Source: Actinomycetota bacterium
Lineage (GTDB): Bacteria; Actinomycetota; Acidimicrobiia; Acidimicrobiales; JAJPHE01
Assembly (NCBI GenBank): GCA_027315345.1
Contig: DAHUYE010000016.1
Location: 1-64,000 of the forward strand
Direction of reading: 5' to 3'
Length of the DNA stretch: 64,000 nt
Position 1 is the first letter of the stretch; each line of letters starts with the position of its first letter. Positions 38,347 to 48,107 of the stretch are shown piece by piece. A model generated the notes under the pieces. The model did not search any database. It had not been told where the DNA came from and saw only the letters and a list, made by a program, of their open reading frames with translations. A program made the position numbers and the translations under genes.

Positions 38347-38365
38347 GTGCGGCCTCCGGCCGCAC
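38347..38365. terminator. Candidate terminator hairpin after the PAC2 gene
   Basis: Perfect 8-bp stem GTGCGGCC/GGCCGCAC around TCC, 8 bp after the PAC2 stop. No T-tract. Confidence 0.55.
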
Positions 38366-38427
38366 GGTGCCGGCCGGGCCCCATCCCCGCCGGCCTGGCG
38401 ACAGCCGGCCAATTAACGTCGGGTCCT

Positions 38428-39438
38428 ATGCGAGTTGACGGTGGTATCCCGGGGTCCCTGAGCGATGTGCCGGCGGCGGCCAAGCGGGCCGAGGAGGCCG
38501 GCTATGACGGGGCGTGGTCGGCCGAGACCGGCCACGACCCGTTCCTGCCCCTGCTGCTGGCGGCCGAGCACACCGAACGCCTCGAGCTGGGCACGGGGAT
38601 CGCGGTGGCCTTCGCCCGCAACCCCATGACCCTGGCCAGCCTGGCCAACGACCTCAACTGGTACTCGGAAGGCCGCTTCTTCCTGGGCCTGGGCTCCCAG
38701 ATCAAGCCCCACATCGAGAAGCGCTTCTCCATGCCCTGGTCCCACCCCGCCCCCCGCATGCGCGAGCTCATCCAGGCCATGCACGCCATCTGGGACAGCT
38801 GGAACGAGGGCACCAAGCTCGACTTCCGGGGCGACTTCTACACCCACACCCTCATGACCCCCTTCTTCAACCCCGGCCCCAACCCCCATGGCAAGCCCAA
38901 GGTCTTCCTGGCCGCGGTGGGCGACGGCATGACCGCCGTGGCCGGTGAAGTAGCCGACGGCATGCTCGTCCACGGCTTCACCACCGAGCGCTACCTGCGG
39001 GAGGTGACCCTGCCCGCCATCGAGCGGGGCCTGGCCAAGTCGGGCCGCTCCCGCTCGGACTTCCAGCTGTCCTACCCGGCCTTCGTGGTCACCGGCTCCA
39101 CCGAGAAGGAGATGACCGACGCCGAGGTCGGCGTCCGCCGCCAGATCGCCTTCTACGGCTCGACCCCCGCCTACCGCCCGGTGCTGGAACTGCACGGGTG
39201 GGGCGACCTGCAGACCGAGCTCAACACCCTGTCCAAGCAGGGCAAGTGGGCCGAGATGGGCGAGCTGATCACCCCGGACGTGCTGGATGCCTTTGCCGTG
39301 GCGGGGGCCCCGGACAAGGTGGGCCGGCTCCTGCTGGACCGCTTCGGGGACGCCGTCGACCGGATCAGCTTCTACGCCCCCTACCGCACCGATTCGGACA
39401 CCTGGTCCGACATCGTCGAGACGCTCAAGGCCGGCTGA
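38428..39438 (+). CDS. LLM-class F420-dependent oxidoreductase
   Basis: A 336-residue luciferase-like monooxygenase-fold protein, from ATG 38428. Typical strands are GYDGAWSAETGHDPFLPLLLAAE, LELGTGIAVAFARNPMTLA, WYSEGRFFLGLGSQ and VADGMLVHGFT. Its sequence fits the TIGR03617-like group of actinobacterial F420-binding members. The cofactor is inferred from family and lineage. It is one of four LLM domains in the window. Confidence 0.88.
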   Translation: MRVDGGIPGSLSDVPAAAKRAEEAGYDGAWSAETGHDPFLPLLLAAEHTERLELGTGIAVAFARNPMTLASLANDLNWYSEGRFFLGLGSQIKPHIEKRFSMPWSHPAPRMRELIQAMHAIWDSWNEGTKLDFRGDFYTHTLMTPFFNPGPNPHGKPKVFLAAVGDGMTAVAGEVADGMLVHGFTTERYLREVTLPAIERGLAKSGRSRSDFQLSYPAFVVTGSTEKEMTDAEVGVRRQIAFYGSTPAYRPVLELHGWGDLQTELNTLSKQGKWAEMGELITPDVLDAFAVAGAPDKVGRLLLDRFGDAVDRISFYAPYRTDSDTWSDIVETLKAG

Positions 39439-39527
39439 GCCCGGGTGCCCGCCCGAACCGGGCGGCCCGCCGGGGCCTGGCGTCCCGTTTGGAAACACCC
39501 GGCCCCGGGCCCGTAGTTTCTGGGCCC

Positions 39528-40697
39528 ATGGGAAACAAAGTCCGGGCCTGGTCCATCACCACCGAAGCCGTAGCCGCCGAGCGGGAGAGGACCGGCGGTA
39601 AGACCGCCGATGTCGACGTGTCCAAGGTCATCCAGCTGGACGACCTCGAGCTGCGGGACGTGGGTCCCTCCGACGTGCGCATGCGCATCCTGGCCGTGTC
39701 GGCCGAGCACAACATCGACCACGCCGCCACCGCCGACACCGTCAACATCGCCGAGATGCGGGGCGGGCGCATCTACCCGGGCAACTCGGCGGTGGGCGAG
39801 GTCATCGAGACGGGCGCCAACGTCACCCGGTTCAAGCCGGGCGATGTGGTCATCACCCACTGCAACGGTGAGCCCGACCACTACGGCTTCCCGCTGCGCA
39901 TCTGGGCCTACGACCAGCCCGAGTCCATCGGCTGGTACGCCGAGGAGGCGGTGGTGGGCGACTGGCAGCTGATCCCGGCTCCGCTGGAGTCGGGCCTCAA
40001 CCTCTGGGAAATAGCCGCCCTGCCCCTGCGGGCCCCGACCGCCTATCACATGTGGCGCCGGGCTCTGGGCATCTACCGGATCAAGGTCCCCCGGGAACGC
40101 CGCTCCCATCTCAACGTCCTCGGCTTCGGCGGAGGCGTATCCGAGCTGTTCCTGATGCTGGCCAAGTCCGAGGGCCATAACGCCTTCTTCTGCTCCGGCA
40201 GCCCCGAGCGCCGGGAGGCCCTGGAGAAGATGGGCATCACCGGTATCGACCAGCGCCAGTTCAACCGCTTCGCGGCCCGGGAGGACGTCAGCGCCTTCCG
40301 TAAGCACGTCAGCTCTCTGACCGGCGGTGACGACATGCACCTGGTCTGCGACATGCTGCGCGGCCCGGTGTTCCCGGCCGGCCTGGCTGTGGCCGCCCGG
40401 GAGGGCGTCAACATCAGCGCCGGCTGGCAGCTGTCCCAGGTGGTCGAATACAACTCCACCATCATGTCGGTCAAGCAGGTCACCATCGACCACACCCACT
40501 ACGAGACCGTGCAGGGCTGTGAGGCGGCCACCGAGTTGTACGGCTCGGTGTTCCGGCCCACCATCCATAAGGAGATCTACCCCTTCGAGGAGTTGGGCCG
40601 GGCCTTTGCCGAGATGCACGAGAACACCCAGACGGGCATCCCCATCATCCGGGTGGCCGACCAGATGCCCGACTCGGTGAAGACGCTGGCGCCTTAA
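39528..40697 (+). CDS. Medium-chain dehydrogenase/reductase (zinc-binding dehydrogenase family)
   Basis: A 389-residue MDR protein from ATG 39528. The GroES-like domain holds VRMRILAVSAEHNIDH, GNSAVGEVIETG and FKPGDVVITH; the Rossmann half has LNVLGFGGGVSELFLMLAK. The usual catalytic-zinc Cys is not in place (the first position is in VSAEHN), so it is more like the crotonyl-CoA reductase/quinone reductase branch. The substrate is unknown. It ends convergent with leuS. Confidence 0.85.
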   Translation: MGNKVRAWSITTEAVAAERERTGGKTADVDVSKVIQLDDLELRDVGPSDVRMRILAVSAEHNIDHAATADTVNIAEMRGGRIYPGNSAVGEVIETGANVTRFKPGDVVITHCNGEPDHYGFPLRIWAYDQPESIGWYAEEAVVGDWQLIPAPLESGLNLWEIAALPLRAPTAYHMWRRALGIYRIKVPRERRSHLNVLGFGGGVSELFLMLAKSEGHNAFFCSGSPERREALEKMGITGIDQRQFNRFAAREDVSAFRKHVSSLTGGDDMHLVCDMLRGPVFPAGLAVAAREGVNISAGWQLSQVVEYNSTIMSVKQVTIDHTHYETVQGCEAATELYGSVFRPTIHKEIYPFEELGRAFAEMHENTQTGIPIIRVADQMPDSVKTLAP

Positions 40698-43313: not shown

Positions 43314-45274
43314 GTGCCCGAACTGAGCCGTCCGGTCGGCCTGGGCCTGGCCGCCCGGGGTTCGGTGCGGGAGATGCTGCGGTGGGCGGATCGGGCCGAG
43401 CGGGCCGGCCTGGACTCCATCTGGCTGCACGAGAGTTATTTCGAACGCGATGCCATCACCTACGCCTCCGCCCTGGCCGAGCAGATCCCCAGGCTGGAGA
43501 TCGCCCTGGGTGCCCTCTCCCCCCTGACCCGCAATCCGGTCCTGACCGCCATGACCGTCAGCTCCCTGGATGACATGGCCCCGGGCCGGATCATCTGCGG
43601 CCTGGGCTCCGGGCTTCCCCTGCGGCTGACCCAGATGCGGGTCCCCTATACCCCCGCCGGTGCCATCAGCCAGATCGGTGAGGCCATCGACACCATGCGC
43701 GCCCTCTGGCGAGGGGAACGCATCCCGGTCCCGGGCGCTCCCGAGCTGGTCCCCATGTTCGCCCCCCTCCACCGGGTGCCGATCTACGTGGCCGGGTACC
43801 GCAGCGCCATGGTGGAACTGGCCGCGGCCAAAGCCGACGGCTACCTGGCCCGGCCGGCCGAGTCGTTGGCCAGCCTGGCCGGGATCATCGAGCGCCTCCG
43901 CCGGGCCGAGACCGCCGCCGGCCGCCCGGCGGGGTCGGTCACCACCGCCGGTTACCTCCTCAGCCTGGTCGGCCCCAACCGTCGGGAGGCCCTCAACCGG
44001 GCCAAGCGGGAGCCCTTCGTCATCTACATGATGAGCGTGCTGTCCGATCTCTCCCTGGACCGGGCCGGCCTCCCCCACCAACTACGCGACGAAGTAGCCG
44101 TCGCCTGGCGGGCCGAGGAGTACCACCGGGCCGCCGGCTTGTTGCCGGACGAACTGCTCGACGCCTTCCTCCTGTGCGGCAGCCCCGAGGACGTGGCCGA
44201 GCGGGCCTGGCAGTTCCAGCAGATCGGCCTGGAGCGCCCCCTCCTCCAACCCGTCGTCCAGGACGATGACCAGATCGACGGGGTGATCACCGCCGCCACC
44301 ATCCTGGGCCGCTCCGGCTACGCCGGTGCCGAAGTGGGCACCCCGGCCGCGGCGGGGGTCATCGAGGGCCGGCGTCCCATCGGGGACCGGCTGTCGGCGT
44401 GGTGGGAGGTGATGCGCCCCTTCAGTCTCACCGCCAGTGCCGTACCGGTGGCCGCCGCCGTGGCCCTGGCCGCCGCCGCCCCCGGCCCCCTGCGCTGGAC
44501 CCTGGCCGTGGCCGCCCTGACGGCCGCCACCCTCATCCATCTGGGCACCAACATCGTCAACGAGGTCTTCGACGTCCGCAAAGGGGTCGACACCATCACC
44601 ACCCCCCGGGCCAGCCTGGCCATCCTGCGGGGCCGCATCAGCGAGACCGAGGCCCTGGGCCTGGCCGGCGCCTTCCTGGTGGGGGCGGTGGGCATCGGCT
44701 CCTGGATGGCCTACGTCCGGGGGTGGCCGGTCATCGTCCTCGGAGTGGTGGGCATCCTGGGCGGGGTCGGCTATACCGCCCCGCCCCTGCGGCTCAAGTA
44801 CCGGGCTCTCGGCCTGCCGGTGGTTTTCGCCCTCATGGGACCGGTCATGGTGGAGGGGACCTACTACGTCCTCCGTAATCGTCTGTCGGCCGGTGCTCTG
44901 GCCGTCAGCGTCCCGGTCGGCCTGCTGGTCACGGCCATCCTCCACGGGAACGAGTGGCGCGACATCGCCGATGACGCCCGGGCCGGGATCAGCACCGTCT
45001 CCATCCGGGTCGGGGGCCGGGCCGCCCACCTCGGCTACGTAGGCCTGGTCATGGGGGCCTTCCTGGCCGTGACCGCGGCCGTGGTGGTCGGGGCCGTCCC
45101 CCGCCAGGCCGCCGCCGCCGACCTGTCCACCCCGCTCCTGGTGGCCGTGGTCCGGGCCGCCGACCTCGGGGCCAGGGGCGAGCGGCGGTCCATCGCCAAG
45201 ATCGACCTGTCCACCGCCCGCCTGCACGCCGTCTTCGGCGCTCTGCTGGTGGCCGGCCTGGCCCTGGCCGCCTG

Positions 45275-45275
<1 letters not shown>
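43314..45275 (+). CDS. Fusion of LLM oxidoreductase and UbiA-type prenyltransferase
   Basis: A 653-residue protein joining two families. Residues 1-340 are an LLM-class (F420-type) oxidoreductase: GLDSIWLHESYFERDA, ALGALSPLTRNPVLTA, RIICGLGSGLPLRL and VPIYVAGYRSAM. A linker leads to a MenA/UbiA-like membrane prenyltransferase (355-653) with eight or so helices and both Asp-rich motifs: N416-x3-D420-x5-D426 (NEVFDVRKGVD) and D550-x2-D553/D554 (DIADD). The frame is continuous, with no internal stop. Its stop overlaps the next gene (TGATG). The fusion suggests a redox step tied to prenylation of an aromatic or quinone acceptor. Confidence 0.88.
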
Positions 45276-46077
<802 letters not shown>

Positions 46078-46299: not shown

Positions 46300-46512
46300 C
46301 GACGAAGGTGGCGAGCGGCCATTCGGCATCGCCCCGGTTCAGCCTCCGCCATACCGTGTGACACCGATCCGCCGGGAACGGGCTACTCCCAGGAGTCGTG
46401 GTTTCGAGCCAAGCTTCTTTGGGACGAGCTGTCGATTGCTGCGGCGTCGTTCGTGGACAGGGTGAGCGGCGCAACTCGGCACCGCTCTCGGCCGAAAGGA
46501 CCAGACTTAACC
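46300..46512. other. Gap with one candidate sigma-factor promoter
   Basis: No gene is seen here. TGTCGA at 46430-46435 followed after 16 bp by CGT (46452-46454) could be an ECF-type promoter for the YCII-sigma operon; I recall TGTCGA as the -35 motif proposed for ECF42. This would make the operon autoregulated. The -10 match is weak. Confidence 0.3.
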
Positions 46513-46860
46513 ATGCCCCAGTACCTGCTGTCCGTATGGCACGACGAGGACTACGAGCCCGACTTCTCCACCCCCGACGCCCAGCGCCAGGTGGCCCAGG
46601 TGGGCGCCTTCAATGACCAGCTCCACAGCTCCGGCGCCTGGCTCTTCGCTGGCGGTCTCCAGCCAGCGTCTTCGGCGACGGTCGTCAGGTCGACGGGAGG
46701 AGAGGTATCAATGACCGACGGCCCCTACGCCGAGACCAAGGAGCAGATGGGAGGGTTCTGGGTCATCCAGGCCCCCGACATGGATGCCGCTCTCCAGCTG
46801 GGCAGTCGAGCCGCCGCCGCCTGCGAGCGACCGGTCGAGGTCCGGCCGCTGCAGGGGTGA
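46513..46860 (+). CDS. YCII/DGPF-domain protein
   Basis: A 115-residue ferredoxin-like-fold protein: MPQYLLSVWHDEDYEPDFST, GAWLFAGGLQPAS and the signature MTDGPYAETKEQMGGFWVI (the DGPF motif), ending in a family-typical ACERPVEVRPL. Such proteins are encoded next to ECF42 sigma factors and may sense a signal for them. The stop overlaps the sigma gene start as GTGA. I start at ATG 46513; upstream codons lack family resemblance. Confidence 0.88.
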   Translation: MPQYLLSVWHDEDYEPDFSTPDAQRQVAQVGAFNDQLHSSGAWLFAGGLQPASSATVVRSTGGEVSMTDGPYAETKEQMGGFWVIQAPDMDAALQLGSRAAAACERPVEVRPLQG

Positions 46861-48107
46861 CCGACAGCCTCGAGGCCGTCTTCCGGCGCGAGGCCGGGCG
46901 CTGCACCGCCACTCTCATCCGCCTCCTCGGCGATATCGACCTGGCCGAGGAGGCGGTGGCGGAGGCGTTCACCATCGCCACCGAACAGTGGCCGGTCCGG
47001 GGCATACCGCCCAACCCCGGCGCCTGGATAACCACCACGGCCCGCAACCGGGCCATCGACCGGCTACGCCGGGAGGCGACCCGCACCGATCGGCATCACG
47101 CCGCTCACCGACTGCATTCAGACGACATGGAGCCGGACCACAATCCCGAAGTCGCCGACTTGGACGCCTTCGTCGACGTGGTGGCCGACGACCAGCTGCG
47201 TCTCATGTTCCTTTGCTGTCACCCGGCCCTGGCCGCCGACTCCCAGGTGGCGCTGACCCTCCGTCTGCTCGGAGGCCTGGAGACCGCAGAGATCGCCCGG
47301 GCCTTCCTCGTCCCGGAGACGACCATGGCCCAGCGCATCGTCCGGGCCAAGCGCAAGCTGCACGACAACCACGCCACCTACCGCATCCCCCGGGCGGCCG
47401 AACTACCCGACCGGCTCGCGGCTGTGCTGGGCGCCATCTATCTGATCTACACCGAGGGCCACACGGCGACGACGGGTAGGAGCTTGACCCGGACCGACCT
47501 TTCGACCGAGGCCATCCGGATCGGCCGGGTCCTGGCCACCCTCATGCCGGACGAGCCCGAGGCTATGGGCCTCCTGGCCCTGATGCTGCTGACCGAGGCC
47601 CGCCGCCCCGCCCGGGTGGACTCACTCGGGTTGATGGTCCGCCTTACCGACCAGGACCGCAGCCTCTGGACACGGGCTCTCATCCAGGAGGGTCACGATC
47701 TGGTGCGGGCCTGTCTGCGTCGCAACCAGCCAGGACCATTCCAGCTCCAGGCGGCCATCGCGGCGGTGCACGCCGACTCGCCGTCAGCCGAAGCGACCGA
47801 CTGGTCCCAGATTGTCGCCCTGTACGACCAGCTTTACGCCATCCGGCCCAACCCAGTCGTGGCCCTGAACCGGGCGGTGGCGGTTGGCTTCCTTGAGGGC
47901 CCCGCGGTCGGACTCGATGCGCTGGCCCGAGTCGATCTCGATGGCTATCAGCCTTACCACGCCGCCCAGGCGGACCTGCTGGCCCGGGCCGGGCGCACCG
48001 ACGAGGCGCTTGCCGCCTACACCCGAGCCATCGAACTGACGTCGAACCCAGCGGAGCGGGAGTTCCTCGAACGTCAGCGGGAGAACATCGCCGACAGCGA
48101 GCTTTGA
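46857..48107 (+). CDS. ECF sigma factor with C-terminal TPR extension (ECF42-like)
   Basis: A 416-residue RNA polymerase sigma factor. Region 2 is at about 10-80 (LIRLLGDIDLAEEAVAEAFT, ITTTARNRAIDRLRREA) and region 4 at about 110-165 (ALTLRLLGGLETAEIARAFL, TMAQRIVRAKRKL). A long C-terminal extension (about 170-416) holds TPR-like repeats ending ALAAYTRAIELTSNPAEREFL. This and its coupling to a DGPF protein match the ECF42 group, which lacks an anti-sigma factor. The C-terminal part is thought to control activity. Confidence 0.9.
   Translation: MTDSLEAVFRREAGRCTATLIRLLGDIDLAEEAVAEAFTIATEQWPVRGIPPNPGAWITTTARNRAIDRLRREATRTDRHHAAHRLHSDDMEPDHNPEVADLDAFVDVVADDQLRLMFLCCHPALAADSQVALTLRLLGGLETAEIARAFLVPETTMAQRIVRAKRKLHDNHATYRIPRAAELPDRLAAVLGAIYLIYTEGHTATTGRSLTRTDLSTEAIRIGRVLATLMPDEPEAMGLLALMLLTEARRPARVDSLGLMVRLTDQDRSLWTRALIQEGHDLVRACLRRNQPGPFQLQAAIAAVHADSPSAEATDWSQIVALYDQLYAIRPNPVVALNRAVAVGFLEGPAVGLDALARVDLDGYQPYHAAQADLLARAGRTDEALAAYTRAIELTSNPAEREFLERQRENIADSEL

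Follow-up and report, generated by a model that had tools for sequence, protein, structure and literature searches.

A conserved fusion of a luciferase-like barrel and a MenA-like prenyltransferase that may mark an undescribed bacterial quinone route

Introduction

Enzymes of the MenA type prenylate an electron-rich hydroquinone, and UBIAD1, the animal menaquinone-4 synthase, prenylates menadiol in humans. Organisms that possess complex I-type and CtaB-type proteins normally require a quinone. A survey from 2026 that covered 26,264 genomes found many Chloroflexota lineages without a recognised quinone pathway and suggested that undiscovered quinones exist (PMC13386864). In Nitrospira, a similar situation, with the complexes present and the quinone pathway absent, led to methyl-plastoquinone (PMC12324825). 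Among enzymes with the luciferase-like monooxygenase (LLM) fold, jMer uses Glu6 as a catalytic residue and has Asp96 in its substrate site (PMC11094777).

Here we analyse a gene that joins an LLM domain to a UbiA prenyltransferase domain. It lies in the window, the whole 64,000-nucleotide stretch of actinomycetotal DNA that was studied (contig DAHUYE010000016.1). The original prediction knew of no such fusion as a described enzyme, and indeed none of the open-licence papers that we searched describes one or unites the two superfamilies.

Results and discussion

The fusion gene is a single open frame from GTG to TGA that contains the Pfam domains Bac_luciferase and UbiA, in agreement with the uninterrupted frame that had been predicted. 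The N-terminus of the window protein, VPELSRPVGLGLAARG, matches the family consensus MxELARxVGLGLAARG, in line with the GTG start. Modelling of both domains together with AlphaFold2 (39 homologues), a check proposed in the original prediction, yielded two well-formed domains with a mean pLDDT of 89, separated by a disordered linker; the helices of the UbiA half run on to residue 652. The pTM of 0.64 implies that the relative placement of the two domains is not fixed by the model. Across the family, the interdomain stretch comprises 30–94 amino acids.

Table 1. Features of the fusion locus, numbered by window position
Feature	Position	Strand	Remarks
LLM-UbiA fusion gene	43314..45275	+	653 aa; GTG start, TGA stop; single open frame; orthologues exist
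LLM TIM-barrel domain	43353..44234	+	residues 14-307; PF00296, 171.3 bits (cut-off 27.9); nearest fold Mer
Gly66-Ala67	43509..43514	+	equivalent of the non-prolyl cis-peptide Gly61-Val62 of jMer beneath the flavin ring
Flexible interdomain linker	44331..44369	+	residues 340-352; pLDDT < 50
UbiA membrane prenyltransferase domain	44448..45161	+	residues 379-616; PF01040, 102.3 bits (cut-off 34.2); helices in AlphaFold2 model; UBIAD1 match
UbiA motif 1, GTNIVNEVFDVRKGVD	44544..44591	+	residues 411-426; Glu417 replaces the usual first Asp
UbiA motif 2, HGNEWRDIADDARAGIST	44943..44996	+	residues 544-561; intact; family signature NEWRD
CPBP/Rce1-like intramembrane protease gene	45275..46006	+	overlaps the fusion stop codon (TGATG); PF02517, 41.9 bits (cut-off 22.4)

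A scan of GTDB species genomes gave 91 candidates and at least 80 loci that encode the same single-frame protein, mostly in Chloroflexota, with additional members in Dormibacterota and a few in Actinomycetota; the fusion is thus widespread in poorly known bacteria of soil and groundwater. It occurs in 38 of 301 sampled Chloroflexota genomes and among 397 sampled Actinomycetota in four genomes besides that of the window, one of the latter copies being cut by a contig end. A search across Actinomycetota, as originally suggested, therefore finds the architecture there, but as a rarity in a family that belongs mainly to Chloroflexota. Aligned members share 48–59% identity with the window protein along almost their entire length, and about 100 positions are invariant in an alignment of 39 fusion sequences. 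At 140 columns conserved to at least 97%, the window protein deviates five times and never at a motif aspartate. In a full-length tree it falls into a group without strong support, together with sequences from Actinomycetota, Dormibacterota and Anaerolineae, and sits on a long branch (0.82), which leaves its exact position uncertain.

A sequencing or assembly error that merged two adjacent genes has a negligible probability as the origin of the frame: the same frame and domain order recur in at least 80 independent loci from many separate assemblies, which rules out a frameshift at the junction. Nor are the domains separate genes elsewhere, as every homologue found is fused and no split version was seen in the genomes examined. 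Where BLAST divided a match into two pieces, these fell either within one long open frame or at the end of a contig. In close pairs, dN/dS is ∼0.04–0.1 in both halves, which are under purifying selection. The earlier impression that both halves look functional is consistent with these data, the two domains being complete, conserved and constrained.

The UbiA half scores above the PF01040 cut-off, carries the motifs NExxDxxxGxD and RDxxxD, and is predicted with high confidence to form a multi-helix bundle, as expected for the UbiA superfamily. Both Asp-rich motifs had been described as intact; this holds for motif 2, whereas motif 1 reads NE instead of ND, with Glu417 invariant across the fusion family. 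The signature of the fusion clade in this half is GTNxxNExYDVRxGxD plus HGNEWRDI. In a UbiA-domain tree that included stand-alone MenA-like genes of Chloroflexota and relatives, some of them adjoining menB, the fusions form one clade (support 0.999) nested among MenA-like enzymes. The best NCBIfam models are likewise those of MenA, but the scores stay below all MenA equivalog cut-offs (143.9/277, 137/264 and 66.7/102 bits), and nearly all hosts lack the genes that make DHNA, the MenA substrate. These two observations argue against membership in MenA, so that of the predicted MenA/UbiA assignment the resemblance to MenA stands and the identity is not supported: judged by its sequence, the UbiA half is related to MenA but not a proven member of it. 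A sequence search of the PDB matched UBIAD1 alone (PDB 8djk, E = 9e-21).

For the LLM half, the PF00296 score and the TIM-barrel fold that Foldseek recognises in the model point to the LLM superfamily. Its closest structures are Mer enzymes (target TM 0.81–0.89) at 19–22% sequence identity. However, the catalytic Glu6 of jMer is replaced by Gly11 in 78 of 79 family members and the substrate-site Asp96 by Leu101 in 72 of 79. Altogether, the four Mer substrate-site positions are changed (acid A to Gly11, acid D to Leu101, amide C to Arg180 and Phe B to Tyr238). Scores below the curated Mer cut-offs (130.6/276 and 105/348.7 bits) and the loss of these acids rule out membership in Mer. Because the Mer substrate-site residues are replaced, pterin chemistry appears implausible for this half, while a role as cofactor platform appears plausible. 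The changes at all four positions would also suit an LLM half that has degenerated into a scaffold, or that senses the redox state of flavin or F420, attached to a UbiA half acting as sole catalyst. We consider this improbable, since the LLM half retains an invariant residue set of its own (H39, E44, R45, D46, T72, R73, R104, Q107 and R229–R232) as well as the cis-peptide glycine, and its dN/dS is as low as that of the UbiA half. A further LLM gene in the window stands on its own (PF00296, 223 bits) and precedes what by eye is a crotonyl-CoA reductase-like zinc-type alcohol dehydrogenase (the pair spans 38347-40697); a leucyl-tRNA synthetase gene, also identified by eye, follows directly on the opposite strand.

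The protein had been called a flavin/F420-type enzyme. CofG/FbiC is found above cut-off in 14 of 54 fusion genomes, including that of the window (G000), which also has CofD, and in none of the remaining 40. One fusion clade (G399, G403, G406, G410 and G413) has neither CofD nor CofG in any of its five genomes; in the two of these that were checked, the only CofD-like match is YvcK. The idea that CofD occurs in all fusion genomes was rejected, as the high-scoring matches include YvcK. If CofG/FbiC is required, F420 made by the cell thus cannot be the general cofactor; of the earlier assignment the LLM fold remains, and F420 as general cofactor is not supported. The invariant LLM residues are unchanged, with few exceptions, in the clade that lacks CofD and CofG, which favours FMN. 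Perhaps some members use F420, and in one Anaerolineales locus cofE, cofD and a probable cofC lie upstream of the fusion. In several Chloroflexota genomes (G400, G402, G404, G405, G407, G409 and others) cofD is present and CofG, the FO synthase, was undetected; the same applies to L053:2809-7814, with cofD, cofE and a probable cofC. Genomes of this kind, with F420 tail genes and no CofG, may salvage FO, use a divergent enzyme or have gaps in their sequence.

Downstream of the fusion, the CPBP gene begins within the fusion stop codon, which indicates that the two genes are coupled. Its motifs EELFWRG, H..SGN and SH..WD are conserved, and the protease motifs EExxxR, H and H..D are so in 76 CPBP copies. 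A same-strand CPBP gene follows the fusion, within the distance tested, in 73 of 84 loci, most exceptions being contig ends; the proposed coupled membrane partner is therefore conserved almost everywhere. A tRNA-Ala (GGC) gene at 45997-46071 of the window overlaps the last codons of the CPBP gene. Further on (46453-48107), a small protein with the motif DGPYAETKE immediately precedes a 416-residue sigma-factor-like protein, an arrangement that we take to resemble ECF42, with a small protein like the DGPF/YCII proteins.

The gene ubiE/menG directly adjoins the fusion in 13 loci, about one-sixth of the total, from three phyla and in three gene orders: downstream, forming a single run with the fusion and CPBP genes (L041, L053 and L062), divergent from the fusion (L009, L051, L064, L075, L082, L103, L106 and L109), or upstream on the same strand (L008 and L036, identical in sequence). 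All three UbiE/MenG copies tested scored above the TIGR01934 cut-off. The recurrence of this neighbourhood in three arrangements across three phyla speaks for a functional link between the fusion and UbiE and against inherited synteny. In ten loci of one Chloroflexota clade (L057, L071, L076, L079, L086, L098, L099 and L112-L114), the position immediately upstream of the fusion, which UbiE takes in other lineages, is occupied by a divergent SAM methyltransferase (cluster 14); this protein, distantly UbiE-like in sequence, may be relevant to the fusion. Other, lineage-specific neighbours named by eye, among them glutamyl-tRNA synthetase, MFS, GNAT and EamA proteins, were set aside as they looked like synteny of close relatives.

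In the sampled Chloroflexota, MenB or Mqn genes are present in 1 of the 38 genomes with the fusion and in 151 of the 263 without it (Fisher p = 9e-12, uncorrected for shared ancestry); the single case is MenB, and Mqn occurs in none of the 38. MenD was found in 3 of 54 fusion genomes (G043, G204 and G651), all three also with MenB, and the fusion would be a second system there. Among relatives of the window genome from the same order or class that lack the fusion, MenD is present in 25 of 26, counting one (G264) in which it appears as two pieces under the cut-off. MenD, MenB and Mqn were not found in the window genome, which is 97.7% complete. The futalosine pathway was considered as a substrate source and rejected, its genes being absent. 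A NuoH-family protein occurs in 53 of 54 fusion genomes, mostly at full strength, this count including a few weak matches that are possibly hydrogenase relatives. Most of the 28 fusion genomes checked also yield a strong CtaB-type UbiA match, and the copy of the window genome was confirmed as heme o synthase. Most fusion genomes are metagenome bins. No UbiA genes other than the fusion and CtaB were found in two fusion genomes (G399 and G403), and none other than the fusion in two more (G406 and G421), although the bins concerned may be incomplete.

Other MenA-like UbiA genes, some of them with canonical NNLRD motifs, are present in several fusion genomes and could supply the quinone enzyme in place of the fusion. 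A canonical NNLRD-type MenA is present in genomes without MenB, MenD and Mqn (G414:C60, G418:C233 and the related Dormibacterota bins L145, L146, L150, L154 and L131). In the part of the regions around these other MenA-like genes that was inspected, no quinone cluster was obvious. A second UbiA family, with GKHIDK..D as motif 2, is found in many fusion genomes: in the window genome as G000:C95 (L003:1384-2409, minus strand), in L039:1618-2655, where it adjoins and diverges from the fusion, and in L123, L127, L130, L132, L133, L138, L140-L142, L147, L149, L155, L157 and L193.

Our analysis thus establishes a conserved protein with selection on both domains, linkage to CPBP and UbiE, the absence of Men and Mqn genes, and complex I subunits in the same genomes. 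Coupled reduction and prenylation, as originally proposed from the sequence, is a plausible activity. The reading that we favour, with a confidence somewhat short of even, is that the fusion is a self-contained enzyme for redox chemistry and prenylation of the quinone ring in an undescribed quinone route. From the computed data we infer a prenyl transfer, a redox step, a cofactor, an order of steps and a head group, as follows. The cofactor of the soluble LLM barrel would be a flavin, namely FMN, or perhaps F420 where the host has it. Acting on an aromatic or quinone head group, the barrel would carry out a redox step, most likely the reduction of a quinone to its electron-rich hydroquinone form, less probably a hydroxylation. 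The UbiA domain would move the polyprenyl chain from its diphosphate onto that ring, and UbiE/MenG would C-methylate the product in loci where its gene adjoins. The CPBP membrane protein may cooperate with the enzyme, for instance by helping to assemble it, to stabilise it or to turn it over. As MenA-type enzymes prenylate hydroquinones, a built-in reductase makes chemical sense. The head group would come from neither the Men nor the Mqn pathway, which would assign the fusion to an undescribed route; no enzyme of such a hypothetical route acting before prenylation, to form the ring, was found. The presence of ubiE beside only about one-sixth of the loci, the preponderance of metagenome bins and a co-occurrence test blind to ancestry count against a quinone route.

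The main rival is a salvage version of the same chemistry, in which naphthoquinone or DHNA imported from neighbouring organisms would be reduced to the hydroquinone by the LLM half, prenylated by the UbiA half and methylated by UbiE where needed. The likeness of the UbiA domain to UBIAD1 and MenA, the absence of de novo quinone genes although complex I is present, and the UbiE linkage all fit such a scheme; it would, however, require that many free-living lineages from at least two phyla share this habit, and no importer is conserved beside the fusion gene in the neighbourhoods of the fusion loci. We regard salvage as unlikely.

A product other than a quinone, such as a prenylated lipid, a polyketide or another secondary metabolite, or a chain reduced by the LLM half after prenyl transfer, is likewise a minor prospect. 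UbiA enzymes accept many acceptors, many fusion genomes contain other MenA-like UbiA genes, the NEWRD signature differs from the NNxRD of MenA, and MenB and MenD accompany the fusion in three genomes. Against these points stand the UbiE linkage across three phyla, the strong association with missing known menaquinone genes and the nearly universal complex I.

The quinone-route reading can be extended, although only tentatively: the fusion may carry out the prenylation step in a third bacterial quinone pathway, so far undescribed, or in the synthesis of a new quinone. Such a pathway could replace Men and Mqn in large uncultured sections of the Chloroflexota and Dormibacterota as well as in a scattering of Actinomycetota, the window organism among them, a proposal that we hold with the same reserve. 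The fusion and its CPBP partner form a concrete, conserved gene pair that marks genomes with complex I proteins and no known quinone pathway; they offer a specific gene for expression and a specific prediction for lipid analysis, and may mark an undiscovered quinone route.

Comparison with known systems

The fusion UbiA half has the Asp-rich motifs, the YTAPP loop, the overall length and the tree position in common with MenA. It differs from MenA by NE instead of ND in motif 1, NEWRD instead of NNxRD in motif 2 and the extra LLM domain, and its hosts mostly lack the genes for DHNA. UBIAD1 aligns over almost the whole UbiA domain and shares the AILHxNxxRD region, but is a stand-alone eukaryotic protein without a reductase domain. 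Mer is closest to the LLM half in fold and sequence, and its cis-peptide glycine is kept; in the fusion, however, Glu6 and Asp96 are exchanged for Gly11 and Leu101, scores lie below the cut-offs, and most hosts lack the F420-chromophore enzyme. The methyl-plastoquinone case of Nitrospira, by analogy, poses the same puzzle as the fusion genomes and argues for the undescribed-quinone reading. The methyltransferase adjoining the fusion resembles MpqE of that pathway (153–176 bits; TIGR01934 family), but falls far below the MpqE model cut-off of 335, and the methyl-plastoquinone route is known from Nitrospirota only, where no LLM-UbiA fusion is described in the open-licence papers that we searched.
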